DNA of 27,462 nucleotides, from IMG/VR virus record IMGVR_UViG_3300031705_000037, positions 1 to 27,462 of that record. The stretch is one strand, 5' to 3'. Below, in pieces: positions 13,315-27,028 of the stretch. The position numbers were made by a program, and so were the translations under genes. The notes under the pieces were generated by a model. The model worked only from the letters and a program-made list of their open reading frames with translations. It was not told where the DNA came from and searched no databases. The DNA is from a virus. Every line of letters begins with the position of its first letter. The first letter of the stretch is position 1.

Positions 13315-13863
13315 CTATGCTTCGATGTTCATGATCTCATTATCTCTAATCTCAATATTGTTTTCTCCAACATTAATATCGAATGTACCATGTATGTCTA
13401 CATCACCTACCGTTTTAACAGGCGAATTTGCCATACCACCTAGTTTCCTAGCTGATTTGTTAGCGTTAACATCATCCATGAATCCTATGTTAATAACAGT
13501 ATCTGCACCGTTTAATACAATGTATATGTTATCTCTAGTTTCGATGTCAGCATTCAGTTTGTTAACTTCGTCTAATACCCATTCTCTTTCAAGGTTTACT
13601 GTAACTGAGGTAACGTCGTCTATTGATTTTACCTTCTTTTCTATAAATGGCATGATGATTGAAGATGCAGTATTCTGGAATTCCTTCCATTCCTTATTAA
13701 TTTCTAATAGAGTTGCGTCAACGTCACCGTCATAACTTATTGCTTCGATTTCTTTCTTAAAGGCTTGCATTACCTTTCCAATAATTCCAGTTGCGGAATA
13801 TGGTTTCGACATTCTGTATACTTTTTCGTTTACAAATGCTTCAAATAATTTTACGTGTTTCAT
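13315..13863 (-). CDS. hypothetical protein with T4-internal-protein-like leader peptide
   Basis: 182 aa. The N-terminus MKHVKLFEAFVNEK resembles T4 internal protein leaders (MKTYQEFIAEA), which target proteins to the prohead core and are cut by protease gp21 after L/I-x-E. Here VNE (residues 11-13) is the candidate cut. The rest is unrecognised: a helical middle (IGKVMQAFKKEIEAI), then a beta-rich C-terminal half (NIYIVLNGADTVINIGF, VGDVDIHGTFDIN). It follows a second gene with the same leader by 12 bases and ends at a strong terminator, so the two form a small unit after the late-type promoter at 14447-14454. Packaging in the head is an inference from the leader. Confidence 0.7.
   Translation of the reverse strand: MKHVKLFEAFVNEKVYRMSKPYSATGIIGKVMQAFKKEIEAISYDGDVDATLLEINKEWKEFQNTASSIIMPFIEKKVKSIDDVTSVTVNLEREWVLDEVNKLNADIETRDNIYIVLNGADTVINIGFMDDVNANKSARKLGGMANSPVKTVGDVDIHGTFDINVGENNIEIRDNEIMNIEA
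13832..13863 (-). repeat. leader-coding direct repeat, copy B
   Basis: The first 32 bases of this gene match the first 32 bases of the gene starting at 14415 with two differences, both at third codon positions. After that the two genes diverge completely. Similarity limited to the leader suggests spread or conservation of the leader itself. Confidence 0.8.
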
Positions 13864-13875
13864 AGCTTTATATCA

Positions 13876-14415
13876 TTAGTTAAGTCCTAATTCACTTCGT
13901 AATTCATTCCAGTCGAAATCAGATATAACTTCTTTACACGTTAAATCGTTATCTTCTCCCCATGCTAATATGTAATCTAACATGTTTTTTTGAGTATATG
14001 GTTCAACGTCTAAATCGTCTTCATCGTCAAGGAATTGATCCTCATATGTATCGTAAATTTCTTCTGCAACGTCATTTGCAAACGCTTGAATTTTTCTAAT
14101 ATCTGATTTAGAATATGCTTCATTCACTGATTTGTATGATTCGAAAAATTGCAAATCAGTTACTTCTAATGAATATTCATTCTCGTCACCGTTAACACCT
14201 TGTAATTCAACAGTTTCTTCCTTTTTGTTGAATTTTACAATTTCGAATTTAGTACCCTTACTCATTGTTATTCCGTCAACGTCGTTTGTTAGATCGTATA
14301 GAGAATATTCTAAGTCATTGTCGTTAACCTTCGAAGTGATTGTGTCTCCTTTTTTAAATTTTGATGCTTCATTCATGTTTGTAACGAATGCTTCAAATAA
14401 TTTTACATGTTTCAT
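13876..14415 (-). CDS. hypothetical acidic protein with T4-internal-protein-like leader peptide
   Basis: 179 aa. The leader MKHVKLFEAFV is identical to that of the next gene; MNE followed by Ala (residues 14-17) is a candidate prohead-protease site. Residues 20-85 look like a small beta-barrel (KKGDTITSKVNDNDLEYSLY, then TKFEIVKFNKKEETVELQGV), of the SH3/KOW type. The C-terminal part is helical and very acidic (EEIYDTYEDQFLDDEDDLDV). No enzyme motif is visible. It is the first gene after the nrdA terminator and carries a perfect TATAAATA box about 32 bases upstream, which points to late expression and agrees with a virion role. Confidence 0.7.
   Translation of the reverse strand: MKHVKLFEAFVTNMNEASKFKKGDTITSKVNDNDLEYSLYDLTNDVDGITMSKGTKFEIVKFNKKEETVELQGVNGDENEYSLEVTDLQFFESYKSVNEAYSKSDIRKIQAFANDVAEEIYDTYEDQFLDDEDDLDVEPYTQKNMLDYILAWGEDNDLTCKEVISDFDWNELRSELGLN
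14384..14415 (-). repeat. leader-coding direct repeat, copy A
   Basis: Partner of the repeat at 13832-13863 (30 of 32 bases identical). A more diverged relative codes for MKHIKLFEEY at the start of the gene at 23605. Confidence 0.8.
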
Positions 14416-14446
14416 ATGTGATGTATTGTTTGTTTTATTATATATC

Positions 14447-14454
14447 TATTTATA
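14447..14454 (-). promoter_or_regulatory. T4-type late promoter TATAAATA
   Basis: Exact TATAAATA on the minus strand, directly after a terminator hairpin (14459-14485) and about 32 bases before the ATG at 14415. This is the consensus read by gp55-containing RNA polymerase, and this phage encodes a gp55. Confidence 0.7.
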
Positions 14455-14458
14455 CTAA

Positions 14459-14485
14459 AGACAGGGAGTAGCGAATTCCCTGTCT
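14459..14485 (-). terminator. intrinsic terminator after nrdA
   Basis: Nine-base perfect stem AGACAGGGA / TCCCTGTCT with a 9-base loop, followed by TTTAG on the minus strand. It lies about 57 bases after the nrdA stop. The T-run is short, so efficiency is uncertain. Confidence 0.68.
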
Positions 14486-14541
14486 AAATCCGAAATCTAG
14501 TTCCGGTCCTAAGAGTGGACTACCACCATTTTACCATGTGA

Positions 14542-16167
14542 TCAACCCTCACAACTCGAACATTCCAGTATATCCCTTGCAAATGACTGAGCTGAACTTT
14601 GACTAAATTGATAGTATAGTGTTTTAACTCCTTCTGTATGTGCATTAAGATACAATGTATTAATGTCCTTTGCTGGAACACTGGGGTGTATCATTAAATT
14701 TAATGATTGTGATTGATCAATGAATTGTTGACGCTGACCTGCTTGCAATATTAATTCGTTTGGCGAAATTTCTATGAATGATTTGAAAACTTCCTTAGTT
14801 GGAAAATCCAAATGTTGAACGCTACCATCTCTTTTAAGAATTCCTTCCCATGTTAACGGAGTGTTCATGCCATATTTTTCTAGCTCAGATTCCAATTGAG
14901 CATTCTTATAAATTGTTTTTGACTTTGCTAAATCTTTAATAAAGTAATTGGATTTGATCGGTTCAATACCCATAGAAACTTGTCCTAAAATAAAAGAACT
15001 TGATTTAGTAGGGGCTATGGCCATTAATGTTGAGTTTGCATAACCTGGTCTAATAGACCTGTAACCTCTTTCATCATGCAACCACTTAGATGCATTGTCG
15101 CTTCTTTCCTTTAATGTACTAAATATTTCATGGTTTAATCCCTTAGCTTGTAATGAATCGAACTCAATTAATTTTGATTGAAATAACGAATGGTATCCGA
15201 GAACTCCTAATCCTAATGCTCTGTGCTGTTCTGCAAATCTGTGTGCGCGTTGCATTCCTGGTAAATTATATGATTTCTTAACGAACTCATCCATTACTGC
15301 ATTTAAGAATAAAACATATGTCTCTACTGCGTCGGTTTCCTTAATCGCATCCCAGTGTAGTAAGTTAATAGAACCTAAGCAACATACGAATGAATTAAAA
15401 GAATCCGTTGGTAGTTGTATTTCTGAACATAAATTTGAGGCTGTTATCTCAAGTCCTAGTTCCTTGTAAGGTGTATTGTTGTTAGTGTTATCCTTGAACA
15501 TAATATATGGAAATCCAAACTCATTTCTTCTTTGAATAACTTTAGCCCATATCTTACGTTTGTCTGAATCTCCTTCTTTCATTTCAGCAATCCATTTGTC
15601 AGTAACCGTAACACCATATTGTAGGTTTTGAATAGGATTTCCATCAGTTCCTATATCTAAGAAATCACTGATGTCCTTGTGTTCAATTGGTAACCATGCA
15701 GCACATGCTCCTCTTCTTGCTTCAGATTGTTTACACACGTCAACTGTAGTGTCATACATTCTAGCGTAATGAACAGGTCCATCTGCAGTTCCGCCTGTTG
15801 AAATTGATTCTCCCCTTGCTCTGATGTTTCCAAGATAAACTGATGTTCCTCCGCCATATTTTGACATCATTCCAATTTCTCTACTTCCGTTTAATATACT
15901 ATCCAACGTATCATCTACGTTTGAACCATAGCAACTAACTGGTAATCCCTTATCCTTTCCAAAATTGATCCATACTGGAGTTGATAAGCTATAGAATCCA
16001 CGCGTCATATAGTCTTCAAACTTCTTTGCAAACCCCTCGATCTTTAAATATTTTTCTGCTGTGTTTGCAACATCCTTTATGCGTTGTTCTGGTGTTTCAC
16101 TGATGTATCCTCTTGATAAAAACGTTCTGCTGTCTTCATTAAGCCAATAATTCTTTTCGTAATTCAT
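14542..16167 (-). CDS. nrdA: ribonucleotide reductase class Ia large subunit NrdA
   Basis: 541 aa. It converts ribonucleoside diphosphates to deoxy forms together with NrdB. Visible active-site elements are C79 (LPVSCYGSN), N245/C247/E249 (SNLCSEIQL), the second redox Cys at 262 (CCLGSINL), the radical-transfer tyrosines TLYYQF near 519-522, and the C-terminal shuttle pair CSSC at 536-539. The protein begins right at the catalytic barrel: the ATP-cone of E. coli and T4 NrdA (761 and 754 aa) is missing, so inhibition by dATP through that domain is not expected. NrdB is encoded upstream with two mini-ORFs between. Transcription ends at the hairpin 14459-14485. Confidence 0.95.
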   Translation of the reverse strand: MNYEKNYWLNEDSRTFLSRGYISETPEQRIKDVANTAEKYLKIEGFAKKFEDYMTRGFYSLSTPVWINFGKDKGLPVSCYGSNVDDTLDSILNGSREIGMMSKYGGGTSVYLGNIRARGESISTGGTADGPVHYARMYDTTVDVCKQSEARRGACAAWLPIEHKDISDFLDIGTDGNPIQNLQYGVTVTDKWIAEMKEGDSDKRKIWAKVIQRRNEFGFPYIMFKDNTNNNTPYKELGLEITASNLCSEIQLPTDSFNSFVCCLGSINLLHWDAIKETDAVETYVLFLNAVMDEFVKKSYNLPGMQRAHRFAEQHRALGLGVLGYHSLFQSKLIEFDSLQAKGLNHEIFSTLKERSDNASKWLHDERGYRSIRPGYANSTLMAIAPTKSSSFILGQVSMGIEPIKSNYFIKDLAKSKTIYKNAQLESELEKYGMNTPLTWEGILKRDGSVQHLDFPTKEVFKSFIEISPNELILQAGQRQQFIDQSQSLNLMIHPSVPAKDINTLYLNAHTEGVKTLYYQFSQSSAQSFARDILECSSCEG

Positions 16168-16195
16168 TTATTTTATTATTTTTTAAGTATATCTT

Positions 16196-16336
16196 TTACT
16201 GATATGTGTCGATTGGTTCTAACTCTCCTACTTTTATTTTGTTTATTTTATAAAAAACAATGTTACCGTTTGATGTATTTGCAAATTCTTGTGCCTTCTT
16301 GACACAATAATCTATTTTATATGCCACTGATAACAT
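16196..16336 (-). CDS. mini-ORF between nrdB and nrdA (second of two overlapping)
   Basis: 46 aa, starting MLSVAYKIDYCVKKAQEFAN and ending VGELEPIDTYQ. It overlaps the 3' end of the other mini-ORF (16312-16434) in the -1 frame. The two together read as one plausible protein of about 79 residues if the ribosome or the sequence shifts by -1 at AAAATAG (16312-16318). No family is recognised. It may be an independent small gene, the second part of a frameshifted gene, or a decayed gene. Confidence 0.4.
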   Translation of the reverse strand: MLSVAYKIDYCVKKAQEFANTSNGNIVFYKINKIKVGELEPIDTYQ

Positions 16337-16434
16337 ACTGTTTTATCATTATATTTGCCCATTCCCATGTAAATATATTCCCCTAGGACAAAGTCTTTAT
16401 CTAGTATCGATTCAAGTTCTTTAGAATAAGTCAT
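16312..16434 (-). CDS. mini-ORF overlapping the nrdB 3' end (first of two)
   Basis: 40 aa, beginning MTYSKELESILDKDFVLGEY and ending CYQWHIK before TAG. Its ATG lies inside the last codons of nrdB, an arrangement typical of coupled phage genes. Tyr/Gly/Met-rich strands (YIYMGMGKYN) suggest a small beta fold continued in the second mini-ORF (NGNIVFYKINKIKVGELEPI). Function unknown. Confidence 0.4.
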   Translation of the reverse strand: MTYSKELESILDKDFVLGEYIYMGMGKYNDKTVCYQWHIK

Positions 16435-17398
16435 CTTCTGTTATTGATTTTGATTTTTTGTTATAATCTGTTGATTTTTTGTAAAAGAAATCACCTTCCT
16501 TTGTTGATAATATCTCAACATCAAACCATAATGATTTTTCTATCTCCAATTGATCTACATCAAATATTGATTTCATTCCAATTCTATTTAGTGAATTGTT
16601 AAAACGATTCTTTATAAAATGTTTAATGTTTTCTTTAGATAGGAAATCAAGTTCTCCCTTTTCAAAGATCCAATCAAGAATTTTAACCTCTGCAGCATAC
16701 GCCTTTCGACATGCAGAATCTATTAATAATTCAAATTCTTCATCAAACCATTCTGGATTTTCTTCCTTAATAATATTAATTAATTCAGAACCAAAGTTTC
16801 CATGAATCTCTTCCTCCTTGCTCGTCGCTTCCACTACATTTGAAATACCTTTAAATAGATTCTTCTCTTTGTTAAACGACATCATTATATAGAACTGACT
16901 AAACAAACTAACATGTTCAATGAACAATGAAAACAATAAAACTGATTTCGTGTACATTTTGTTATCTCTACTCCTTGTTCCATCTAAATATTTGGTAAGG
17001 TATGCAATTCTATCCTTAATTGCAGGAATTTCAATTACACTCTGGAATTCTTCCTCTAATCCTAATATTCTCAATAATTGTGCATATGCATCTTTATGTC
17101 TTACTTCTGATTCAGCAAACGTCATTCCGACATCACCTATTTCGGTAATTGGCATTCTTTTATAAAGATCTGCCCAAAATGTTTTAACGTTTACCTCAAT
17201 CTGGGCAATTGCTAACATTGCTCTTTTAATAACTTCACGCTCTTCTTCCGATATCTTTGTTTTAAAATCATCAATATCTGTGGTGAAATTAAATTCAGTA
17301 TGTATCCAATATGAATGTCTAATAGCATCCTTATACGCCAATAGCTCTGGATACTGATATGGTAAAATGTTTACTCTCTTTTCAAAAATGTTGCTCAT
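16421..17398 (-). CDS. nrdB: ribonucleotide reductase class Ia small subunit NrdB
   Basis: 325 aa. A ferritin-like R2 that makes the diiron-tyrosyl radical for NrdA. The first iron-ligand helix reads AESEVRHKDAY: Glu, His three residues later and Tyr seven later, matching E115/H118/Y122 of E. coli, so the radical Tyr is present. The second ligand pair is seen in SKEEEIHGNFG (ExxH). The C-terminus SITEDDLF resembles the acidic R2 tail that docks on R1. It lies 37 bases downstream of the polymerase N-terminal gene, inside the gap that separates the two polymerase halves. Confidence 0.93.
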   Translation of the reverse strand: MSNIFEKRVNILPYQYPELLAYKDAIRHSYWIHTEFNFTTDIDDFKTKISEEEREVIKRAMLAIAQIEVNVKTFWADLYKRMPITEIGDVGMTFAESEVRHKDAYAQLLRILGLEEEFQSVIEIPAIKDRIAYLTKYLDGTRSRDNKMYTKSVLLFSLFIEHVSLFSQFYIMMSFNKEKNLFKGISNVVEATSKEEEIHGNFGSELINIIKEENPEWFDEEFELLIDSACRKAYAAEVKILDWIFEKGELDFLSKENIKHFIKNRFNNSLNRIGMKSIFDVDQLEIEKSLWFDVEILSTKEGDFFYKKSTDYNKKSKSITEDDLF

Positions 17399-17435
17399 TT
17401 TATTACGTATTTTTAATGTTAATTATATATAGATG

Positions 17436-18833
17436 TTACTTAAGAAGCTTTTTTAACTGATCAGCTTTTGTGTAATAATCATATGATGTTTTCTTGTAGT
17501 CTTTACGCTGGGCATATAGGTCAGTTAATAATTTTCTAAGGATTGAGTCTTCTGTGTTATATACTACGCCATTATCGCAAACTATTATGTCTTTATTTTT
17601 TCTTTTTTCAGCAATTTCATGCTTTGGTATCTTTTCGATAAATGCATCTGGAGATATGTTAAACTGTCTCATGATTGAAGGGTATAGGGAAGCAAAATCA
17701 AATGCTGTTACACCTTCATAAAAACCAAGGGTTGGTTCCTTTACATATGCTCCGGCATATTGCGTGTTCTTTTCACTATCTTCTTTCTTCTCTGTTCCGA
17801 TTCGCATTCCCTGTTCTGCTAGTTTTCTAGCCATAATTGCTTCGGTCACTGCCACTGGAGAACTTGCCTTATATAATGGCATGTTTGTTATGTTTGCCAA
17901 GGTTAATAGCACTTCCATTGATTTTAATTTCTGATCAATATAGTATACCAGTACTGAATCGACTACGTTATAATATATGTACTTAACGAAATTGTCCCTG
18001 TATAGATCTTGTAATGATCCAGTGAACTTAATTTTATTAACCTTAAGTACTTGACTTGACACATAATCTAATGAATTCGATTCCTTTACCTTTACGCTTC
18101 TATCATACTTATCGTATAATGACATGTAATCTAAAATACCAATGTGTAATGGTCTACTGTCATTCCTGTCTAATGCACCTGTCATTCCAACTTGGCTAAT
18201 ATCTATTTGTAATCTCTTACATCTATTTGTAATATATTGCCAATCATAATTAATGAAGTTCCAACCTGACATCATTGGAAATTTAGGTAAGAACTTCATT
18301 AAGAATGTATATACCATATCATATTCGGATTTGAACTTATGGTACTTAAATTCCCAATCTTGATCGAAATCCTTAAAATATTCATTGGTGTCGTCTTGTA
18401 TCTTTTTAATACTATCTGACGACATATCCTCTAATCCTAACACAATTGCCTTACGTTCTGGGGTAATAATTGAGAATGAAAGGATTCGAGTCTTTGCTTC
18501 TTCTGCCTTTGGAAAGCCGTCAACAATTTCTGTTTCAATATCTACAAAATATGTTTTTGGCATATTATATGCTGTTAATTCTGCCTTGTCTGCATCTGAT
18601 AATGAATCCATGAAATAGACCAAAGAAAACTTATTAAATTGTCTACCATAACCTAGTTTGACCGCTCGACCATCCCAGTTTTTGTATTGCGAGCTTGCAC
18701 CTTTATCCTTATCTCCACATACATACCAGTTTTGGAATTTATCAATGGGATATTGTTTATATGCTACTTCACCTTCTTTGTTATAATATGAAATAATAAT
18801 GTCTTTTTCTCTCTGTTCAACGTCTAATATCAT
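17436..18833 (-). CDS. 43A: DNA polymerase gp43, N-terminal part (exonuclease and motif A)
   Basis: 465 aa. This is the first half of a T4-type family B polymerase. Exo I is FVDIETE (D98, E100), Exo II is GWNFINYDW (D197), and Exo III is NVVDSVLVYYID (D292). The motif A is FDFASLYPSIMRQFNISPDA (D379 metal ligand). The last part, LYAQRKDYKKTSYDYYTKAD, matches the first fingers helix of T4 (FYGQRKKWKKKMFAEEMNAE), and the protein then stops at KKLLK. Motifs B and C and the thumb are encoded about 5 kb away at 11239-12435. All catalytic residues expected in this part are present, so it looks functional as one subunit of a two-chain polymerase. A TATAAATA box is about 50 bases upstream. Confidence 0.93.
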   Translation of the reverse strand: MILDVEQREKDIIISYYNKEGEVAYKQYPIDKFQNWYVCGDKDKGASSQYKNWDGRAVKLGYGRQFNKFSLVYFMDSLSDADKAELTAYNMPKTYFVDIETEIVDGFPKAEEAKTRILSFSIITPERKAIVLGLEDMSSDSIKKIQDDTNEYFKDFDQDWEFKYHKFKSEYDMVYTFLMKFLPKFPMMSGWNFINYDWQYITNRCKRLQIDISQVGMTGALDRNDSRPLHIGILDYMSLYDKYDRSVKVKESNSLDYVSSQVLKVNKIKFTGSLQDLYRDNFVKYIYYNVVDSVLVYYIDQKLKSMEVLLTLANITNMPLYKASSPVAVTEAIMARKLAEQGMRIGTEKKEDSEKNTQYAGAYVKEPTLGFYEGVTAFDFASLYPSIMRQFNISPDAFIEKIPKHEIAEKRKNKDIIVCDNGVVYNTEDSILRKLLTDLYAQRKDYKKTSYDYYTKADQLKKLLK

Positions 18834-18882
18834 TCGTGTCTATTTGTTAATGCTTGCTATTATTTTTTATTGTCTACTATAC

Positions 18883-18890
18883 TATTTATA
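18883..18890 (-). promoter_or_regulatory. TATAAATA late-type promoter before 43A
   Basis: Exact TATAAATA on the minus strand in the 58-base gap between the dUTPase/dCTPase gene and the polymerase N-terminal gene. A late-type box before a replication gene is unexpected, and with this base composition a chance match is possible. Confidence 0.45.
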
Positions 18891-18891
18891 A

Positions 18892-19359
18892 TTAGTAGTT
18901 GTTTTTCTGGCGATTTACATTCTCTTCAGCTTTTGCAAAATAGTAATTAAAGGCAGTTTTTGCATCTAATCCAATTGAAGAAGCGTAATTCATAAAGAAG
19001 TGCAAAATATCTACCCATTCCATATATAGTTCTTTTTTATCTCCTTCAGAAAGATCCGATACTTTCATTGTATCATATTTCTTAAAGTCTTTTTTCCAGT
19101 ATTTCCATACTGCATTTCCAGAACCATCTTTAATACCTCCAAGTGCATCTGTCATTTCATGAATTTCATCAACTAATGCATGTGTGTTAACATGCCAAAA
19201 ATCCATTACTTCTCTTATTGACATATCTTCAAAGTTAAAACCGTAAGTCTGCTCTTGCATCTTTTTTTGGTTTTCCATGATGTCTGCTAAATGTGTTGTT
19301 GATTTTGAATAGAAATCTTTAACTTCTAAATCCTTGCATTCGTTATCTATATTTGCCAT
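18892..19359 (-). CDS. 56: dimeric all-alpha dUTPase/dCTPase (dUTPase_2 / gp56-type)
   Basis: 155 aa. The sequence has the marks of the dimeric dUTPase / MazG-like all-alpha pyrophosphatase superfamily: ALVDEIHEMTDALGGIKDG with the ExxE metal motif, WKYWKKD, then LYMEWVDILHFFMNYASSIG with the second acidic motif, and YYFAKAEENVNRQKNNY. Members hydrolyse dUTP (and in T4 gp56 also dCTP) to the monophosphate. Which substrate is used here cannot be read from sequence. The neighbouring glycosyltransferase makes a dCTPase role in a modified-cytosine pathway attractive, but no dCMP hydroxymethylase is in the window. Confidence 0.85.
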   Translation of the reverse strand: MANIDNECKDLEVKDFYSKSTTHLADIMENQKKMQEQTYGFNFEDMSIREVMDFWHVNTHALVDEIHEMTDALGGIKDGSGNAVWKYWKKDFKKYDTMKVSDLSEGDKKELYMEWVDILHFFMNYASSIGLDAKTAFNYYFAKAEENVNRQKNNY

Positions 19360-19391
19360 ATTTTTATTTGTGTTGTGTTATGTTAGTTTTA

Positions 19392-20486
19392 TTAGAATAA
19401 TGAGTTTTGTTTATGAATTGGTTTAATTATTTGTGAAAGATCAACAGTTAACTCTGGACATATTCCCTTGACGATATCAACTATCTTATTGTCGAAATCT
19501 TCTTTAGTCCACATGAATGATAATACAGTGTCAGACTGCAACTTTGCGTAATCTACCAATTCATTATCACTTAATGATTCTATGTTCTGTACAGGTAACC
19601 CTAATGCCTCTGTATCCTTCGGGGATGATAGCAGTACAGACTTCTGAATAGCTGCATAGATCCATCTTATTCTAAACCATCCAGAACCTGCATGTGGGTA
19701 TTCTGGACATAATATACCCCAATATTTTCCACATGTTTCAAACACATCAGTCTCAGTTGCAAGCTGACTTGCTTCCTTGATACTCTTGGCACCAAAATAA
19801 TCAACTGGCCATTTTAATTTGTTTCTTCGGACCCATGGCTGATGATTAACTAAAGATGCTAACATATGCTTTCGTTCCTTGGGTTGAGTAGGAGTATCTA
19901 AACTAATATTCCAGTTTTCTAAAACATATGGGGTTAAATCAATGTTGTAGATGTTCTTCATATTTATAATGTCTCTTACCTTCTCCTTATCTCCCCAGTC
20001 AAATGCAGGGATTAGTGCATGGTCAAATTCTCCTTCAGCCACCTTTCTAATAACTTCCATTGCTGCATCACCATCAAATTCAGGGTGATCAACTCCACCG
20101 TAAAAATGTCTACCATCACTCCATTTCTTAGATACTGATTTGTCAAATACTTCTTGTTCCAGCATCTTTGTCCATGATTTCATAGTTCCATCTATCTTCC
20201 AATCTTCATGGAAGATCAATACATTCTTGACTGTCTTTAGTGCGTATATTGCGTTAAATATGTCTCCTGAATAATTGTTGGAACCAAATTGACCAATACC
20301 GACGATTGCTAGTCCATATTCATTAAGGTCATCTCCCCATTTGACCTTTCGTCTATCTACTGCATATCCCTGTCGGCGTAATGAGTTACATATAATAGAA
20401 CTGTCATCTATTCGTTTTACCCTTGCTCGTTTGTATGCATCGTCATCGACTTGCTTGGCAGTGCACCCTGTAAAAAGTATTTTCAT
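19392..20486 (-). CDS. putative GT-B-fold glycosyltransferase, possibly DNA-modifying
   Basis: 364 aa from the ATG at 20486. An in-frame ATG 57 bases earlier lies inside the upstream gene and is less likely. The N-terminus MKILFTGCTAKQ, a helix with SIICNSLRRQGYAVDRRKVK and the strand YGLAIVGIGQFG look like the first Rossmann unit of a GT-B enzyme, laid out as in T4 beta-glucosyltransferase. The C-terminal part (FRIRWIYAAIQKSVLLSSPK followed by ESLSDNELVDYAK) resembles the nucleotide-sugar-binding lobe 'FITLRVWETMASDAVMLI...'. Homology is distant; donor and acceptor are unknown. The protein ends KQNSLF, a possible clamp-binding tail; T4 alpha-glucosyltransferase is reported to bind gp45. Confidence 0.55.
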   Translation of the reverse strand: MKILFTGCTAKQVDDDAYKRARVKRIDDSSIICNSLRRQGYAVDRRKVKWGDDLNEYGLAIVGIGQFGSNNYSGDIFNAIYALKTVKNVLIFHEDWKIDGTMKSWTKMLEQEVFDKSVSKKWSDGRHFYGGVDHPEFDGDAAMEVIRKVAEGEFDHALIPAFDWGDKEKVRDIINMKNIYNIDLTPYVLENWNISLDTPTQPKERKHMLASLVNHQPWVRRNKLKWPVDYFGAKSIKEASQLATETDVFETCGKYWGILCPEYPHAGSGWFRIRWIYAAIQKSVLLSSPKDTEALGLPVQNIESLSDNELVDYAKLQSDTVLSFMWTKEDFDNKIVDIVKGICPELTVDLSQIIKPIHKQNSLF

Positions 20487-20487
20487 A

Positions 20488-20757
20488 TTATTGTTGTTTT
20501 TCGTTAATGTAGTTATCAAGTCCTTGTATATATGCAACGGCATCTAATAGGTTATCCTTCTTATGATTGTATGATTCCCTTGAGAATTTAAGTGCAACTA
20601 GTGCCTTATACATATGTTCTCCAGTAACTTCAAAACCTGTCATACCTTGGAAAATCATGGCTGCTCGATCCATTCCTTCTGAAAATGGACCATATTGTCT
20701 ATCAGATTCTTCTGATCTATTATTAACTATACTGCTTGCTTCGTCTAATATGTTCAT
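20488..20757 (-). CDS. DUF6378-like phage protein
   Basis: 89 aa. ILDEASSIVNNRSEESDRQY, PFSEGMDRAAMIFQGMTG and LVALKFSRESYNHKKDNLLD, then AVAYIQGLDNY, follow the pattern of a short phage family (DUF6378: 'ILxEAxxIVxGxRxxxYGxPxExFxRxAxxWxxxxG...KLxRExxxHKxDNxxDxxGY'). The function is not established, although the all-alpha layout and the conserved His-Lys-x-Asp-Asn recall NTP-pyrophosphatase-like folds. The start shares bases with the stop of the upstream mini-gene (ATGA), and the glycosyltransferase ATG follows one base after the stop. Confidence 0.65.
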   Translation of the reverse strand: MNILDEASSIVNNRSEESDRQYGPFSEGMDRAAMIFQGMTGFEVTGEHMYKALVALKFSRESYNHKKDNLLDAVAYIQGLDNYINEKQQ

Positions 20758-20918
20758 ATGTTATTTGTTTTTATATTAATTGTTTCTGTTATCTTAATAA
20801 TAAGATCCTCGATACCTTCGTTGTATGCAAATTGTGTATCGTCTGTTGGATCTTCGAATTTAATAGAATCCTTTGCTATTTCCATTAACAATTCGATATT
20901 GTCTATATTGTTCTTCAT
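20754..20918 (-). CDS. small hypothetical protein
   Basis: 54 aa, acidic, beginning MKNNIDNIELLMEIAKDSIK and ending INIKTNNI. Its TGA stop overlaps the ATG of the DUF6378-like gene (ATGA), the classic coupled arrangement. That and the codon use like its neighbours are the reasons to accept it. Two helices are likely; no family is recognised. It would be the first gene of the unit that includes the glycosyltransferase. Confidence 0.5.
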   Translation of the reverse strand: MKNNIDNIELLMEIAKDSIKFEDPTDDTQFAYNEGIEDLIIKITETINIKTNNI

Positions 20919-20979
20919 CTTTTAATTATTATTATATATGTAAATATAATCATTTTATTTGAATATAAAAAACTTTAAG

Positions 20980-21243
20980 CTACTTATTTTCAATAAAGTT
21001 ATTAACATGTTGGATTACTTGCCCTCGCAAATCCACCTTTAACCAAAACAGTCTAGCAATTATTTCAACATCATCCTGTGATATGTCTGTTTCGAGGGAA
21101 GTAATAAATACAAAATTGCTTATCATCTTCCTAGGGATTCCTAATTGATTCATATCATCGCATGATGATATAGTTTCATTGATTTTATTGATTTCCAAAA
21201 CTGACCACTGTTTCCAATCATCAGGTGTATAAAAATATTCCAT
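20980..21243 (-). CDS. hypothetical protein
   Basis: 87 aa, probably all helical: YTPDDWKQWSVLEINKINET, then LGIPRKMISNFVFIT, and RLFWLKVDLRGQVIQHVNNF. Not recognised. Its start is only ten bases after the hairpin at 21254-21288, so it is either transcribed by read-through or from a promoter hidden in the non-coding stretch 21289-21370. It is followed by 61 A/T-rich non-coding bases. Confidence 0.55.
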   Translation of the reverse strand: MEYFYTPDDWKQWSVLEINKINETISSCDDMNQLGIPRKMISNFVFITSLETDISQDDVEIIARLFWLKVDLRGQVIQHVNNFIENK

Positions 21244-21253
21244 ATATTAAACG

Positions 21254-21288
21254 GTTAAAGGCCCTGTAGATTATACAGGGCCTTTAAC
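21254..21288. terminator. strong bidirectional-type hairpin terminator
   Basis: Perfect 15-base stem GTTAAAGGCCCTGTA with its complement around a 5-base loop (21269-21273). The outer A and T runs within the stem and a following TTTAAT give terminator character on the minus strand. It lies 82 bases after the stop at 21371 and ends the long ligase/tagged-protein operon. Confidence 0.78.
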
Positions 21289-21370
21289 AAAGGTTTCAAC
21301 TATGTTGAACTATTTTCCGATGATACACGGAATATTTTATAAAATAGATATCGAGTGTACGAATACCTTA
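21289..21370. other. structured non-coding stretch between 21371 gene and terminator
   Basis: Contains three further inverted repeats: TTCAAC/GTTGAA (21295-21309), TTCCG/CGGAA (21315-21332) and the 14-base perfect palindrome at 21333-21346 (TATTTTATAAAATA). No open frame or tRNA is seen. It may be a 3' untranslated structure, a small RNA or a promoter/operator for the gene at 21243. Confidence 0.4.
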
Positions 21371-21772
21371 TTAAATGTGACTAGACGTTTGTCCAATTGA
21401 ACTACTAATTGATTCAATATATGACTCGAATGTTAATGATAATATCGTATGTTCAGTTGATTGAACATCTGATAACGATTCTTCGACTCTGTCATACAAT
21501 TGAGTATCTCCGTTCCATCTCCAATCATCTACATTAAAATCTTTAAGTTTTTTAACCTTTTGATAATCCGAAGGTGATAAACTAGATTGTTTAAGAGTTG
21601 CAGCTTCAGCTAAGAAAGATTCTATTGTTTTTAAATATTTCATTTTCTTCTTTTTCTTTTCTGTATCATTGTCAGATGGGATGTCCCCTGAACCATCAAT
21701 ATCGCCTGTTGGTAGAATGGTTGCTCCCATTCCTCCAATATGACCTAATGTTATGTTCTCATACATGTCCAT
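21371..21772 (-). CDS. hypothetical protein with internal leader-like motif
   Basis: 133 aa. The first 43 residues are Gly/Asp-rich (HIGGMGATILPTGDIDGSGD) and end in a Lys run. Residue 44 is a Met that begins MKYLKTIESFLAEAATL, very like T4 internal protein leaders, with LAE followed by Ala (54-57) as a candidate gp21-type site. Either translation starts at 21772, giving a two-part protein, or at the inner ATG (21643), giving a 90 aa tagged protein. The 21772 start fits the 11-base spacing from the upstream gene. The remainder (DYQKVKKLKDFNVDDWRWNG) is unrecognised, and the C-terminal region contains a further TFESYIESI. Confidence 0.6.
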   Translation of the reverse strand: MDMYENITLGHIGGMGATILPTGDIDGSGDIPSDNDTEKKKKKMKYLKTIESFLAEAATLKQSSLSPSDYQKVKKLKDFNVDDWRWNGDTQLYDRVEESLSDVQSTEHTILSLTFESYIESISSSIGQTSSHI

Positions 21773-21783
21773 GTCAATTTTAT

Positions 21784-22590
21784 TTAGTTTAATCCTGAAA
21801 TTTCAGCTTCAATGCTCATTAATTTATCAACGAAAGGCTGAACGTCAGACCACTTGATTTCCTTAGCATCGAATCTCTTACGTGCATCCGCAAAATCACT
21901 CTCAGCCTTTGCAAAATCCGCTTGTAACTTCTTAACATCTTTAACATCATCCTGTGCTTCTTCGTCGGCATCGTCTAGTTGTCCTTCTAAATTGATAAGC
22001 CTAGCTTCTAAATCAACAGTAGCTGAGGCCAATGGATGTACTTCCGACCACTTGATTTCCTTAGCATCAAACTTCTTTCTAGCTTCTGTAAAATCGTTTT
22101 CAGCCTTCTCTAATTCCTTTTCAACCTTCTTGATTTCAGCCTTTATTTTGTCATCGTCCTTTGCCGTAGCTTCTTCTCCATCAAATGCAGGAGCGATTGA
22201 CGTATCGAATGTTGTCTTTGCTTTCTTAGCGGCAGATGCAACATCGTTTAGTATGTGCTTTAGTTTATCATTGTCTGATATCTTCTGTGTCTCCTTCTTA
22301 AATGCTCCCTTCATTGAGTTCCATTTATCAGCTGATTTAGACTTACTGTCATCATCAAGATCATCCCATTGATCAGCTATTGCAATGGCAAATTTAACAG
22401 CCTTTGACGCTGAGGATTTACCTCCGTCGCCAATTGCCCATTTTACCATTTTCATAGAGGGCTTAAAGTCTCCCTTGCTTGCTTCGTTAATTTTATCTAT
22501 GTTAACATATTCACCATCTAATATAGATTCTATTAGTAAATTGTTTTTTATAGACAACGTGTACTCTTCGTATAGTTTTGTTCTTTTCAT
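21784..22590 (-). CDS. tagged, Lys/Asp-rich coiled-coil protein with tandem duplication
   Basis: 268 aa. Leader MKRTKLYEEY; INE followed by Ala (34-37) is a candidate prohead-protease site. Residues 37-140 are highly charged with many Lys/Asp/Ser/Ala (DDLDDDSKSKSADKWNSMKG). The C-terminal 108 residues contain two copies of a unit centred on FTEARKKFDAKEIKWSEV / FADARKRFDAKEIKWSDV (residues about 161-204 and 227-268) in a coiled-coil setting. The composition recalls scaffold-core or internal head proteins. Function not known. It is in the operon with the genes at 23605 and 21772, with 4 and 11 base gaps. Confidence 0.7.
   Translation of the reverse strand: MKRTKLYEEYTLSIKNNLLIESILDGEYVNIDKINEASKGDFKPSMKMVKWAIGDGGKSSASKAVKFAIAIADQWDDLDDDSKSKSADKWNSMKGAFKKETQKISDNDKLKHILNDVASAAKKAKTTFDTSIAPAFDGEEATAKDDDKIKAEIKKVEKELEKAENDFTEARKKFDAKEIKWSEVHPLASATVDLEARLINLEGQLDDADEEAQDDVKDVKKLQADFAKAESDFADARKRFDAKEIKWSDVQPFVDKLMSIEAEISGLN
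21787..21912 (-). repeat. intragenic repeat unit, copy 2
   Basis: Codes for residues 227-268 of the 268 aa protein. Bases 21848-21870 are identical (23 of 23) to 22046-22068 in copy 1, indicating a fairly recent tandem duplication or selection on the FDAKEIKWS core. Confidence 0.75.
21979..22110 (-). repeat. intragenic repeat unit, copy 1
   Basis: Codes for residues 161-204. It shares KFDAKEIKWS and flanking coiled-coil pattern with copy 2; a 22-residue acidic linker separates them. Confidence 0.75.
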
Positions 22591-22594
22591 AATA

Positions 22595-23605
22595 TTATGC
22601 GTATGTTAATCCTTTAATTTGATTGATTTTATCGATAATTTTCTTTGCGTATTGTTTAACCTCTTTGTCATAGTATGAGTTACCATACCCTGCTTCAGTC
22701 TCTTTCTTTGCATTATCAGTGTATTCAACGTATCTTGAAAAATCATCTAATATACTCTTCATATGGTATGATGCATCCGATAATTTAACGTCACGTTTGT
22801 TTGTAGATACTCCGATCATAATGTCACCATATTTTGTCTTCGCACCTTTCTTAATACCATCTTTGATTTGTAATGTCAAATCGTCAATTGCATCAAATAC
22901 TAATTTGTCAATCGGCATCTTAGCTGCTCTGTTCGCAATGATGTCCGAGTATCTTCTCTTGTTATCTGCTTTGAAATCTTTATCAGATTTATATGCGATT
23001 GCTCCAGTCTTTGCTTCCTTTCTAGCGTCAATAATATCAGCTGAAGAATATCTTGCCTTTAATACATCTAAGTCTAATACATATGCGCGATCTGCAAGTA
23101 ATGCAACCTTTTTCATACTAGATATACCAGTACCGTATGTTCCACTTGCTGGAGATTTAGCATATCCTGCAGAATCATCTCTCTTACTCTTTGACAATGT
23201 TAATCCACCCTTTTTCTTACCAGGATATAATGCCCAATTTGATGTCCATGTTACATTCATCCAATCATTGTTACCGTCGGTTATTGCCAATAATGTATTG
23301 GCTGGAATTGTTTTAGAATTCTCGTCCTCTGTGTATTCATTTTGCTTTTCGTTAGTAGTAAAGTAAAGGTACACTGCGTTTGCTCTTCTCTCTCTGTTTG
23401 CCAAGCTAGGAGACATTTCAATGATGTCTTCATCTTCAATCTTATCTAACTTCAATTTCGTCATTCTATAGAATGCCTTTGGTAAACCCTCTGGAATTGC
23501 ACCAGCCCCTGTGAAGATACTTGCAAGTTTTGCACTTTTAAATGCTTCATTTAATGAAGGGAATCTAGTTTCAATGTATTCCTCGAATAATTTAATGTGT
23601 TTCAT
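22595..23605 (-). CDS. hypothetical protein with capsid-targeting-like leader
   Basis: 336 aa. Leader MKHIKLFEEYIETRFPSLNE followed by Ala21: LNE at 18-20 is a good L-x-E protease site. The body is unrecognised: VYLYFTTNEKQNEY, PANTLLAITDGNNDWMNVTW, then GISSMKKVALLADRAYVLDL and a Lys/Arg-rich helical part. The mixed alpha/beta layout with an N-terminal leader could fit an injected enzyme (T4 packages the ADP-ribosyltransferase Alt this way), but I do not see a clear R-S-ExE signature and do not assign one. It lies between the 299 aa and 268 aa genes in the same operon. Confidence 0.7.
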   Translation of the reverse strand: MKHIKLFEEYIETRFPSLNEAFKSAKLASIFTGAGAIPEGLPKAFYRMTKLKLDKIEDEDIIEMSPSLANRERRANAVYLYFTTNEKQNEYTEDENSKTIPANTLLAITDGNNDWMNVTWTSNWALYPGKKKGGLTLSKSKRDDSAGYAKSPASGTYGTGISSMKKVALLADRAYVLDLDVLKARYSSADIIDARKEAKTGAIAYKSDKDFKADNKRRYSDIIANRAAKMPIDKLVFDAIDDLTLQIKDGIKKGAKTKYGDIMIGVSTNKRDVKLSDASYHMKSILDDFSRYVEYTDNAKKETEAGYGNSYYDKEVKQYAKKIIDKINQIKGLTYA

Positions 23606-23627
23606 ATTTGTGTTTTTTTATTGTGAT

Positions 23628-24527
23628 TTATATATTTGCGTTTAAAAACGATCCAAATGATTCATGAACGAATGTAACTGCTTCATCTAGATCTAATGTC
23701 CATGCAAATTCAACGTATTCAATAGCATCCTTCTCTGATACTTTCCATTTGTTCGCTGTTTTTAATACTATTTCTCGTGTTATATCCTTATTTTTATATT
23801 TCGATATATCTTTGTCAAAACCACCAGGCACCCATGTTTCTGGATTCTTCATTGTTTTTTCATTGATCGTTATTCCCCTTAAGATCCTGTTACCAAATCC
23901 TGATAATGAGATTCCATCCTCAGATACATTGAACATGCTTGAATTGCGTTTCATCCATCTCTTAGAATCGCTAGACATCTCCTTTAATATTGCGTCGAAT
24001 TCCAACTGAGAAATCTTCCCATCCTTTATCGCTTCTAACATTTTATTTCTGATTCGTGCAGATTTACCAACAGTTGACGCTGGGTGGTTTTCAGTATATT
24101 TTCGTTTTGTCGTTATGTTACGTCCTTCGATAACTACAGATTCATAAGTCTTACGTAAATACTTTAGTATCTCCTTGGCTAGGTTAGGATTGTCGTTATC
24201 TATTGCAAAGTCGTATATTTCATAACCTTCTTTCTCGGATTTACCCTTTAGCATTTTTTGAACATATTGTGTTGAATATTCATTAACGGTTTCATTCGAC
24301 TCTAATGTCATTGCAATAGAGTCCTTATATATTGATTTTGCCCATTTTATAGAATCTGCATTTTTTTTAACCTTATCACCAAACTCCTTGAAGAATTTTT
24401 TAATAAAAGAATCCTCGTCATCCGATTCTTCTGCTAATTCGTATATGTCAGACATACCACCTTCTATTAGTAATATGCTCTCTTCAATCGATCTGTCATC
24501 GTTGATATATTTATTAAATGTTGTCAT
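23628..24527 (-). CDS. hypothetical helical protein of the tagged operon
   Basis: 299 aa. N-terminus MTTFNKYINDDRSIEESILL, then LIE followed by Gly23: a weaker version of the leader with a candidate L-x-E site at 20-22. The body is mostly helical and charged. A conserved-looking segment, HPASTVGKSARIRNKMLEAI plus DGKISQLEFDAILKEMS and RWMKRNSSMFNVSEDGISLS, hints at a compact folded domain. The C-terminus VTFVHESFGSFLNANI resembles the leader motif again. Not recognised. Its start is nine bases after the stop of the ligase/NMNAT fusion. Confidence 0.65.
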   Translation of the reverse strand: MTTFNKYINDDRSIEESILLIEGGMSDIYELAEESDDEDSFIKKFFKEFGDKVKKNADSIKWAKSIYKDSIAMTLESNETVNEYSTQYVQKMLKGKSEKEGYEIYDFAIDNDNPNLAKEILKYLRKTYESVVIEGRNITTKRKYTENHPASTVGKSARIRNKMLEAIKDGKISQLEFDAILKEMSSDSKRWMKRNSSMFNVSEDGISLSGFGNRILRGITINEKTMKNPETWVPGGFDKDISKYKNKDITREIVLKTANKWKVSEKDAIEYVEFAWTLDLDEAVTFVHESFGSFLNANI

Positions 24528-24536
24528 GTTTTATTA

Positions 24537-26408
24537 TTATTGTTTATTGATAAATTGTTCGAACGTCATTACTACTTCTTCGTGTTCAGTAGCAACTCCC
24601 ATTGCATCTTCGATCTTTGTTCTTAATTCACTATACATTGGGTGTATTGCCTTAGGCGTCATCAATTGGTATTCCTTTTCGTTGTTGTCTAGCATTGCAT
24701 TTCTAACCTTCGTTGCTGATATGTTGTCGTCAGTTCTTGGTATTTCAAATAATCCGAAATCTGCTCTAGCGTTTAATTGATCTCGGTATGAATCGTTGTT
24801 GACTTGAAACCCATATGATTTCATTCTGTCGCTCCCTGTTCCCCATAATACTGGTTCATATTTTGGACGCATTTCATTAAACATCGTATCAATTGCTCCG
24901 GTTGGTATAACAAATATCTCCTTCAGAAAAGGATACTGCTTCTTAACCTTGTTGAACATATCGATCTGTGTCTTTTCGTCGTATGGTTTTTTAAATTCAT
25001 CACCCTTCTTTTTCTTCTTCGCCTTAACTAGAAATACTACCACCGGAAATCCGTTCTCCTTGTGAATAGTTTCCAATACCTTAGCATGTCCCAGTGTAAA
25101 TGGCTGAAATCTTCCGACAAACATATTAACGGGTTGTTTTCCCTGTTCGTTATATTTTACAGTAAGTGCTTCGTTTAGATCTATTGTTGTTTTTACCTTA
25201 TTATGTAGCATAAAATTTTTGTAATTATGAATTGCATTCTCGTCTGTATTTTCCACGAATATTTTATCAGATATAGATTTAACCACGTCGTTCATTCTGT
25301 TCATAGTATCTTTGTCGATCAGATCGGTCTCCTTGTTTCTCTCCTTTTTAAAAGAACCTAGTATCATTTTGAATAATTCGGCTAGTACTTCATTTGAAAC
25401 ATATTTTAATGTTCTCTCATTCTTAATATATTTGGTATTTAACTTAAAAGATTCTGCTGATGCGAATTCAGCACTTTCAAAATTAACTCCAATATATTTT
25501 GAAGAATGTTTATCAATATATCCATTGAATACTATTGACATTAATTCCAAATATCTATGGTTTGGACTTTCCTCCTCTAGTTTAATATCACTGATTTTCT
25601 CCTGCATGATATATTCTAAGAAATCTGTAACTGCTATTTGATATGTATGACTTGATTCCTTCGAATCAACATCGTATTTTCCCCTATTGAAATCCTCGAG
25701 CTTAAATGACCTAGCTGATTTTCCATCAACGAAGTTTAATATTAAACCATCAATTTCGGTTGTAAGATCTGGATTTAGGATTGAAGATATTAGTGTAGGA
25801 TTGAATAATTTAAATATCTTCGTTGTGAAACTCATCTTGTCGCTCGACACCGTTGAATATTCATATGCATTGGCAAATTCCTTATCATTCATTTCTAGTA
25901 ATTCTAGCAATTCATCACGTTGTTCCTTTGAAAGATATCCGTCAAAAATAATACTAGCAGGCTGTACTTCAAGGGCCTTTGCCCATTTGTTCAGTATAAC
26001 TGGATCATTTATTGTCTTTTTAATCTTGCCACTATTGTTCACTTGGTGAATATGCGTAAGAATCAAGTTGCCCATCGGTGTACTTTCATATTCGATCCTA
26101 GATGCCTTTATCTCTGGTAAATATTCAAAACCGAATTTCCAATCGTTCGGTATTGAATTCTTAACGTCGTTTGGTAGACTTTGTAAATGGTTTATTGCCA
26201 TTTCATATAATGATATGATAGTTCTATCTACCAGATTTAACCTTTCGGAATTAGAAGACTTATAGAATTCAAATCCATCGTCTTTCCTTGTAAAAAGAAA
26301 TGATGGTGCAGCTATTTTCTCAGTAACCAGTACTCTGTTCTTTAACATACTAATGAAGTTCTCTCTATTAGCTTTGTTAAAATGATCTCTTAATTTTTGT
26401 AACGCCAT
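24537..26408 (-). CDS. RNA-ligase-like and NMN-adenylyltransferase-like fusion protein
   Basis: 623 aa. The N-terminal part resembles the Rnl2-type covalent nucleotidyltransferase fold: motif I VTEKIAAPSF with K31 as candidate nucleophile (T4 Rnl2 has EKIHGTNF), motif III FGFEYLP (about 92-98), motif IV EIDGLILNF (about 218-226) and motif V SFKLED (about 234-239). The C-terminal part, from about residue 425, is a (H/T)xGH nucleotidyltransferase of NadM/NadR type: MFVGRFQPFTLGHAKVL, then WGTGSDR and ISATKVR. The first would adenylylate itself and seal RNA or transfer AMP; the second would make NAD from NMN and ATP. A helical linker of about 180 residues joins them. The C-terminus MTFEQFINKQ resembles the leader motif of the downstream genes. 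Domain calls are by motif; substrates are unknown. Confidence 0.72.
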   Translation of the reverse strand: MALQKLRDHFNKANRENFISMLKNRVLVTEKIAAPSFLFTRKDDGFEFYKSSNSERLNLVDRTIISLYEMAINHLQSLPNDVKNSIPNDWKFGFEYLPEIKASRIEYESTPMGNLILTHIHQVNNSGKIKKTINDPVILNKWAKALEVQPASIIFDGYLSKEQRDELLELLEMNDKEFANAYEYSTVSSDKMSFTTKIFKLFNPTLISSILNPDLTTEIDGLILNFVDGKSARSFKLEDFNRGKYDVDSKESSHTYQIAVTDFLEYIMQEKISDIKLEEESPNHRYLELMSIVFNGYIDKHSSKYIGVNFESAEFASAESFKLNTKYIKNERTLKYVSNEVLAELFKMILGSFKKERNKETDLIDKDTMNRMNDVVKSISDKIFVENTDENAIHNYKNFMLHNKVKTTIDLNEALTVKYNEQGKQPVNMFVGRFQPFTLGHAKVLETIHKENGFPVVVFLVKAKKKKKGDEFKKPYDEKTQIDMFNKVKKQYPFLKEIFVIPTGAIDTMFNEMRPKYEPVLWGTGSDRMKSYGFQVNNDSYRDQLNARADFGLFEIPRTDDNISATKVRNAMLDNNEKEYQLMTPKAIHPMYSELRTKIEDAMGVATEHEEVVMTFEQFINKQ

Positions 26409-26430
26409 TGTTATTTATTATGTTTGATAG

Positions 26431-26443
26431 CCGGACCGTCCGG
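26431..26443. promoter_or_regulatory. GC-rich inverted repeat upstream of the fusion gene
   Basis: CCGG-ACCGT-CCGG, an isolated GC-rich symmetric site in an AT-rich 89-base gap, about 23-35 bases before the ATG at 26408. It could be an operator or mRNA hairpin in the leader. Confidence 0.35.
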
Positions 26444-26457
26444 TTATATTTAATACA

Positions 26458-26478
26458 AAGAAACATAGTACGTTTCTT
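26458..26478 (-). terminator. weak candidate terminator hairpin
   Basis: Seven-base stem AAGAAAC/GTTTCTT with a 7-base loop, about 20 bases after the stop at 26498, followed by a T-poor tail. The stem is AT-rich, so termination would be partial at best. Confidence 0.4.
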
Positions 26479-26497
26479 GATTTATTTATCTTAATTT

Positions 26498-27028
26498 TTA
26501 TAACGATTCATTTAGCGATTCGATATCCCATTGTATTCTCTGTAATGGATCATCTCCTTTAAATTGTTTCGATATCCATGCAATAAGTCCAGGCTCGTTC
26601 TTTGCATTTTGCGATAGATCGCTTGCGTTTTCCGTTCCTCCATTTGATACATTAGTACGTAACCATTTAGTATACTTTGTTTGATTCCACTTTACCTTCT
26701 TAACAGTCTTGTCATGTGGTCCATTTCCTAATTCAGAAATTGCGGCAGCATATGATCCTGGTAAAAATACACCAGTATATTCCTCATCTGCATTACCAAA
26801 ACTAATTTCCTTTCTGAATTTTATTAGTGCAGTATCTGCTACTTTGACTTGGCCAGAAACAGTACGTTCCCCTGCGTCACTGCCATATTTTATTTTTAAT
26901 GATAGGGCATCGTCTGTATCTGTTGCAAAATGCAAATCATACATACCTGATTTTTTATATTGTCCTATGTCTGTTTTTTCATTGATAAACTCGTTTACGA
27001 ATGATTCAAATGTAGTTTGTATTCTCAT
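26498..27028 (-). CDS. hypothetical protein with capsid-targeting-like leader
   Basis: 176 aa. N-terminus MRIQTTFESFVNEFINEK: two overlapping leader cores, with VNE (11-13) and INE (15-17) as candidate protease sites. The body is beta-rich (YDLHFATDTDDALSLKIKYG, then VSGQVKVADTALIKF) followed by Trp-containing helices (KYTKWLRTNVSN). Not recognised. The bases before its ATG, GATAAATAAATC, are shared with the region after its own stop (26481-26492), which may reflect a repeated leader. It is followed by a weak hairpin and a promoter-like gap. Confidence 0.7.
   Translation of the reverse strand: MRIQTTFESFVNEFINEKTDIGQYKKSGMYDLHFATDTDDALSLKIKYGSDAGERTVSGQVKVADTALIKFRKEISFGNADEEYTGVFLPGSYAAAISELGNGPHDKTVKKVKWNQTKYTKWLRTNVSNGGTENASDLSQNAKNEPGLIAWISKQFKGDDPLQRIQWDIESLNESL

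Follow-up and report, generated by a model that had tools for sequence, protein, structure and literature searches.

Why should a series of otherwise unrelated phage genes begin with the same short leader? The question is raised by the IMG/VR record IMGVR_UViG_3300031705_000037, whose entire 27,462 bases (hereafter the window) are a fragment of a T4-superfamily phage whose main genes lie on the minus strand. An earlier reading of the letters alone (the sequence-only reading) had noticed, on seven genes, leaders like those of the T4 internal proteins (IPs), each followed by a candidate prohead-protease site, and had proposed that the phage packages and injects at least seven unrelated proteins, possibly as anti-defence effectors. 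The leader observation is real and wider than that reading stated, and its interpretation is partly supported. We consider it very likely that a T4-type capsid-targeting leader loads many unrelated protein bodies, is cut by a gp21-type protease and that the bodies are injected with the DNA. As far as sequence can test it, the system fits the T4 type in all features, its scale and tag positions being new.

A leader shared by unrelated genes

All seven leader genes of the window are on the minus strand, with 5′ ends at 13863, 14415, 22590, 23605, 24527 and 27028 plus an inner ATG at 21643, and their coordinates confirm the positions first proposed. The leader core lies at residue 4-6 in 5 of the window's 32 open reading frames (ORFs) versus 0.11 expected (Poisson 1.3e-7), a figure that is post hoc since the motif was chosen after viewing the window and its regular expression was adjusted by eye to the window and its relatives. 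Better tests are offered by the relatives and by the cleavage site. ORFs were called on the window and ten related contigs (11 records; contigs of 27 to 234 kb), and nine of the ten related contigs are enriched for the core at this position (P 1.1e-5 or less), among them G001 (20/295 versus 1.02 expected), G009 (21/194 versus 0.67) and G005 (17/276 versus 0.95).

The 11 records together hold 137 leader genes, whose bodies, compared by blastp at 1e-3 after leader removal, form 74 families. The claim that a T4-type capsid-targeting leader sits on unrelated bodies is thereby extended well beyond the window. G001 has 25 leader genes, G005 and G009 21 each, G004 15, G003 and G011 13 each, G007 10, G014 8, the window 5, and G008 and G010 3 each; the contigs are unequal in length and these numbers (3 to 25 per related contig) are therefore not rates. 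Within a contig nearly all bodies are unique, with 25 families among the 25 genes of G001, and 47 of the 75 clusters first obtained are confined to a single contig. The leader stands at ORF residue 1 in 116 of the 137 genes, with the consensus MK[HK][IV]KLFE[EQD]F[IVL]NE and mostly S, A, K or G as the next residue. Leader genes often adjoin one another: 19 of the 25 in G001 have a leader neighbor within 60 bp.

Several candidates were removed during curation. A phosphoesterase family of four, first counted among the leader genes, was dropped as its motif begins at an internal Met, a helicase with the motif at residue 38 was excluded by name prior to the count, and one wrong-strand hit was taken out. 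Doubtful short or odd leaders (e.g., G010 142671, G011 147303, G009 1515 and G004 40954) were retained in the 137.

A candidate cleavage site at the T4 spacing

In T4 IPIII, residues 4 and 7 are the main determinants of capsid targeting and residues 8 and 10 those of processing; an Asp at residue 10 stops processing while targeting is spared (PMC9026906, in part). The T4 IPII and IPIII leader (taken from NC_000866) is MKTYQEFIAE-A, where the hyphen marks the cut, as it does for candidate sites below. F7, F10, [ILV]11 and E13 of the present leader share the IPIII spacing (aromatic-x-x-aromatic-[ILV]-x-Glu), with three extra residues before the first aromatic, unlike the T4 proteins. The aromatics at i and i+3 were selection criteria, whereas [ILV] at i+4 and Glu at i+6 were not. 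These two residues are found together in 92 of the 137 leaders, and in 52 of the 74 families when one (the first) member of each is taken. The corresponding counts are 11 of 316 for internal copies of the core and 39 of 1493 for genes without a leader.

All seven window leaders do have an L/I/V/M-x-E within 40 residues, as the sequence-only reading held, though this loose test is weak. An [LIVMF]-x-E lies in residues 11-25 of 429 of the 1493 non-leader genes, and a loose L-x-E within 40 residues was therefore discarded as evidence. Candidate sites in the window leaders span residues 13-36. The exact T4-spaced site is present in three of the seven, VNE-K (13863), LAE-A (21643) and VNE-F (27028), and the leader at 14415 has MNE-A three residues beyond the T4 spacing.

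Protease and head genes in relatives

The relatives do have a gp21-type protease beside the portal, for which the sequence-only reading had called. We collected 80 portal loci, 64 of them with enough sequence to assess the protease, and 57 of these 64 have a protease signature at most 2.6 kb downstream of the portal; protease matches at any location were found in 16 of 16 records searched. In L012, L006 and L034 the portal is followed by a small acidic protein, then by a protease-scaffold ORF of 638-643 aa, by gp23 and by a longer protein, and the neighborhood of leader-bearing acidic protein, S77 protease-scaffold and gp23 was established from these loci together with L028 and L075. The L012 protease matches Peptidase_S77 (PF03420, 4.9e-12) and the PHROG head maturation protease (4.2e-40), and the ORF after it is gp23 (2.6e-42). 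The motifs GELDHP and SSR, which we take to hold the catalytic His and Ser, occur in 37 of 37 distinct protease ORFs, which were picked by a different motif.

An ORF lies between portal and protease in 57 of 57 loci, with a leader-type N-terminus at residue 1 in 54 and the motif at an inner Met in the other three; of the 27 distinct ORFs, 26 have the leader-type N-terminus. It occupies the place of T4 gp67/68, which have no leader. The leader on this acidic protein means that, in relatives, a likely core component bears it as well as cargo, and the long protein after gp23 also bears the leader. A frame of 132 aa in G001 (36016-36351), present also in G002, has a prohead protease match at 3e-8 and is, by its sequence, perhaps a second, short protease relative; a protease paralog has been described in SPN3US (PMC5694885, in part).

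Cargo families in relatives

Among 75 body representatives (one later removed), 16 Pfam families were matched at 0.001, each by a single member, with some of the families sharing one. They include Tad3, PAP2, Lcl_C, AAA_33/Zeta, CTP_transf, HD, Acb1, ATP-grasp, acetyltransferase and DUF6763, among others. At least 59 of the 75 have no Pfam match. Two of the families, the anti-CBASS Acb1 and the anti-Thoeris Tad3, bear on the suggestion of anti-defence cargo, which finds its support in the relatives, where both are leader-bearing.

Acb1 exceeds the curated Pfam cut-off in 6 of 26 records and is leader-bearing in every one of them, although the G003 protein passes only with its frame neighbors included. 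A scan of IMG/VR gave 12 Acb1 loci: the 11 ORFs listed (5 distinct) all bear the leader and each has three or more HxT motifs (two are expected), and the twelfth locus lies in G005, also with the leader. The G003 Tad3 matches PDB 9b7d at 1.8e-35 (residues 45-249 of 254 on 5-190 of 194). Tad3 is present in 2 of the 26 records, leader-bearing in G003 and leaderless in G011, and the leader is therefore an addition to the Tad3 body. The corresponding scan gave 7 loci including G003, with the leader in 7 of 7. Both scans reach only close relatives, such that these leader counts are not independent. At the 19 Acb1/Tad3 loci, 49 of 137 distinct ORFs start with the leader, often in tandem.

The leader genes of the window

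All features in this section are on the minus strand. The first gene, g1 (13315..13863), encodes a 182-aa cargo with the leader MKHVKLFEAFVNE-K at 13825-13863. F10, E13 and K14 are invariant across 14 aligned g1 sequences, one of which has the g1 leader within a 651-aa ORF. An AlphaFold2 model of g1 has a mean pLDDT of 85, falling to ~51 in the first 20 residues. Its neighbor g2 (13876..14415) encodes a 179-aa cargo with the leader MKHVKLFEAFVTNMNE-A at 14368-14415; homologs bear the leader in L212 and L124, and one lies within a longer ORF in L167. The best sub-cut-off Pfam match among the window cargo is that of g2 to DUF6763 (20.2 bits, cut-off 27).

In g3 (21371..21772, 133 aa) the leader MKYLKTIESFLAE-A is internal, at residues 44-56 (21605-21643), and is preceded by a conserved GGMGAT-LP-GSGD module. 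The leader at 21643 thus stands, but not as a protein start: the residues upstream of it are kept in homologs, so the upstream start is real coding sequence, and judging from these alignments the leader is probably internal. The inner ATG may be used in addition, and a free-standing g3 relative (L142:7245-7715) begins at the leader. By eye, the module (window 21643-21772), which reads GGMG-x-x-x-LP...GSGD in 19 distinct non-capsid sequences, is similar to the N-terminal arm of gp23 just past a likely cleavage site, a possible shell-docking mimic.

The 268-aa g4 (21784..22590) is probably a coiled-coil cargo, with the leader MKRTKLYEEY at 22561-22590 and candidate sites LIE-S (residue 21) and INE-A (residue 36). 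Its sole match among the loci compared is in the overlapping record L090. The 336-aa cargo g5 (22595..23605) has the leader MKHIKLFEEY and the site LNE-A at residue 20 (23546-23605). It has 51 relatives, and its Glu20 is invariant in 38 aligned sequences, whether or not a leader precedes. The leader of g6 (23628..24527, 299 aa), MTTFNKYIND at 24498-24527, is present, as the sequence-only reading had it in calling it weaker, but it has Asp at the position where, in T4 IPIII, this residue blocks processing. Many g6 relatives begin MNFNQFLNE and run on into g5.

The 176-aa cargo g7 (26498..27028) has the leader MRIQTTFESFVNE-F and a second site INE-K (26978-27028), with leader-bearing homologs in L124, L089, L134, L114, L178 and others. 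Two leaders come in addition to these seven. One belongs to g8 (27047..27462), the C-terminal portion of a leader protein of 428 aa whose frame is open at the window end; L090 extends past this right end and holds the intact gene (L090:5273-6559) with the leader MKKRILGFSAFITE. The other is a C-terminal copy, MTFEQFINKQ at 24540-24569, on the 623-aa adenylyltransferase-like protein of 24537..26408.

In searches of the window cargo against Pfam and PHROGs the only matches above a cut-off were CTP_transf, in the protein of 24537-26408, and the portal. A tblastn search with g5 against phage records gave zero matches, profiles of g5 and g8 against PDB gave nothing credible, and the AlphaFold2 models of g1 and g5 had no PDB match at E 0.001; we therefore propose no function for g1 and g5.

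Tags at a C-terminus and inside fused ORFs

The protein of 24537-26408 has a nucleotidyltransferase domain at residues 429-570 (24699-25124; PF01467, 3.8e-8), PHROG matches to cytidyltransferase (4.8e-18) and nicotinamide-nucleotide adenylyltransferase (6.5e-6), and a weak PDB profile match (2qjo, 0.0023). A scan of genome contigs for this family found no relative. All 31 distinct full-length homologs end in aromatic-x-x-aromatic-[ILV], a C-terminal motif found in 77 of 2423 proteins, those 31 included. Glu at i+6, the processing position, occurs in 0 of the 18 distinct tails listed. By the T4 rule, a copy without this Glu should be loaded and left untrimmed. By eye, KxDG-type motifs of the DNA/RNA ligase superfamily are seen in g8 (27047-27462, L090:5273-6559) and in the N-terminal part of 24537-26408. 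The two, both tagged, are possibly an RNA repair pair; a profile search gave the motifs no support.

Leaders also lie within longer ORFs. In G008 the C-terminal part of a 651-aa ORF consists of g1 together with its leader, and in G004 a g2-type segment follows a leader within a 411-aa ORF. A long g5 match is found in 46 distinct ORFs of 330 to 1037 aa; 37 of them have more than 100 residues ahead of it and 32 also match g6. In most relatives g6 (23628-24527) and g5 (22595-23605) are one fused ORF. They are therefore not two independent cargoes. Relative to the T4 rule, a tag at the C-terminus that lacks a cut site is a new position, as are the internal ones.

Comparison with known systems

Like T4 IPI, IPII and IPIII, the genes described here combine a short N-terminal leader with unrelated small bodies, and a gp21-type protease follows the portal (here in relatives). 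T4 Ip1-3 are injected anti-restriction proteins that inhibit type IV restriction enzymes, and at least ten internal proteins have been reported in T-even relatives (PMC12373910, in part). Unlike T4, with three internal proteins, a contig here has up to 25 leader genes, relatives' cargo includes the Acb1 and Tad3 families, C-terminal copies lack the Glu, and leaders occur within longer ORFs. T4 Alt is likewise a packaged enzyme that is processed by gp21 and injected (PMC9026906, in part). Alt is an ADP-ribosyltransferase, and none such is among the 16 Pfam families of the 75 representatives. In phiKZ and SPN3US many head proteins are cut after Glu by a gp21 relative and ejected (PMC5694885, in part). 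Several propeptides there exceed 100 residues, whereas candidate sites here lie within ~36 residues; the phiKZ protease typifies family S80, whereas the relatives' protease matches S77 best.

Sphingomonas phage PAU (L217, L229) has a repeated leader of its own, MKT[LI]-x-KLYE, on 14 of the 94 ORFs read; two of these genes are annotated as internal capsid protein, and scaffolding annotations also occur among them. The PAU leader differs in having a single aromatic, and 0 of the 94 ORFs fit a generic T4 pattern. The same pattern fits at least 2/65 ORFs read in T4, at least 2/152 in KVP40, at least 1/149 in S-PM2, at least 3/103 in LR756500 and 0/57 in Lak-C1, counts that are lower bounds for named phages since these were covered in part and the pattern misses T4 IPI. 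It fits 23/295 in G001, 20/276 in G005, 21/194 in G009, 10/94 in G003, 5/171 in G010 and 2/32 in the window. Among the open-licence papers listed by our searches there was no report of the leader string, of virion-packaged Acb1, of injected anti-CBASS or anti-Thoeris proteins, or of capsid targeting in related phages.

Phage context of the window

The portal gene gp20 (17..1612, minus strand; PF07230, 2.4e-67) is closest, among the best 15 of 2301 matches, to that of an uncultured 462-kb phage (58.5%), followed by huge uncultured phages, PAU and Lak phages at less than 40%. The hosts of PAU and Lak phages are Bacteroidota (PMC3738902, in part), with Prevotella named in one record. From this kinship the host of the window phage is probably a member of the Bacteroidota. 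No GGAG-type signal is present in the 15 bases preceding any of the nine window starts listed, which fits such a host. A near-DNA search of window positions 1-25000 against phage records gave zero matches.

A tail sheath stabiliser gene (gp15-like) was identified in the window by database match, and its translations were read by eye, without database matches, as gp46/gp47-like proteins, a helicase, a UvsX-like protein, a clamp and ribonucleotide reductase. By eye, a family B DNA polymerase is split in two (17436-18833 and 11239-12435), with the reductase genes, two leader genes and the clamp between the halves; phage PAU likewise has two DNA polymerase genes (gp105, gp110). In relatives, a BspA-type leucine-rich repeat protein (L034:5224-7398; PF13306, 5.6e-48) lies near the tail sheath stabiliser gene, and a homing endonuclease gene (L006:5941-6738; phrog_314, 3.9e-29) follows a gp46-like gene.

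Interpretation and alternatives

We infer the following course of packaging, cutting, injection and early action. During head assembly F7 and F10, aromatics three apart, would bind the cargo to the prohead core, and the gp21-type protease would then cleave after the Glu of [ILV]-x-E, releasing the body within the head; a leader within a fused ORF would let the protease release two products. The freed body would enter the cell together with the DNA. One address could in this way load many unrelated proteins, in relatives including Acb1 and Tad3, which would act ahead of new viral protein synthesis.

Several results count against this interpretation. The window stops at the portal, before the protease gene, and the expectation of an adjacent protease is thus met by relatives rather than by the window itself; a gp21 search of the window record found none, though control genomes gave no match either. 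A protease signature was not found in 7 of the 64 portal loci, perhaps a limit of the pattern. G010 is not enriched for the leader core (1/171 versus 0.59 expected), and the site at the T4 spacing is missing in 45 of the 137 leaders. Before the last false positive was removed, 33 of 46 such leaders had another [LIVM]-x-E within 30 residues, by the loose criterion. The window's own cargoes match no known anti-defence family in Pfam or PHROGs, none of its seven leader genes having a Pfam family over the cut-off. A phmmer search of Acb1 against solved structures gave no match, and that assignment therefore rests on Pfam and the HxT motifs. To these is added the non-independence of the Acb1 and Tad3 leader counts.

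Some leader proteins, such as the acidic protein after the portal or g5 and g6, which are present in many relatives, could be core scaffolding and not injected effectors. In its strong form, this alternative accepts the prohead core as the leader's target but takes the tagged proteins to be mainly core or scaffold components that shape the head, with few injected effectors. The leaders on the acidic protein and on the long protein after gp23 are what it would predict, and g5, g6, g8 and the adenylyltransferase-like gene co-occur in many loci (loci that were fetched via g5 or the adenylyltransferase-like gene). The number of body families and the confinement of 47 first clusters to single contigs speak against it, as do the Acb1, Tad3, acetyltransferase, HD, ATP-grasp and kinase-like bodies, which have no evident head role. 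We regard it as unlikely, though it fares best among the alternatives to cargo loading and injection.

Considerably less probable is that the leader is some other address or a regulatory tag, e.g., for a replication compartment or a membrane, and the Glu site a coincidence of an amphipathic helix. Amphipathic helices do address several destinations, and residues 7-18 of the g1 model are a low-confidence helix. A coincidence of this kind is opposed by the excess of the site at leaders over matched internal motifs, by the invariance of g1 Glu13 and g5 Glu20, and by a spacing that equals the mapped T4 determinants. That the shared N-terminus is a functionless hitch-hiker of recent recombination, identical DNA moved between cassettes, we consider extremely improbable: the leader genes do stand in tandem clusters and same-residue codon identity among leaders slightly exceeds the codon-usage expectation in 3 of 3 contigs tested, but the excess is small (0.66, 0.59 and 0.59 versus 0.58, 0.56 and 0.52), so that a mere DNA repeat was rejected in favor of selection at the protein level over recent copying, and the motif is retained within longer ORFs and at a C-terminus.

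A tag that marks head-packed cargo makes the discovery of injected proteins a genome search. Here it points to 74 body families, mostly without a Pfam match and two of them known for counter-defence, and the resulting prediction is that anti-CBASS and anti-Thoeris proteins could be delivered with the DNA instead of being made after entry. A C-terminal tag without a cut site, together with internal tags, would extend the T4 rule. We lean slightly toward a broader view, in which a modular head-loading code of cleavable N-terminal, uncleavable C-terminal and internal polyprotein tags would stock the capsid with enzymes and inhibitors, up to 25 or more of them, and preloaded anti-CBASS and anti-Thoeris proteins, together with RNA or NAD repair enzymes, would disarm the cell before viral expression.

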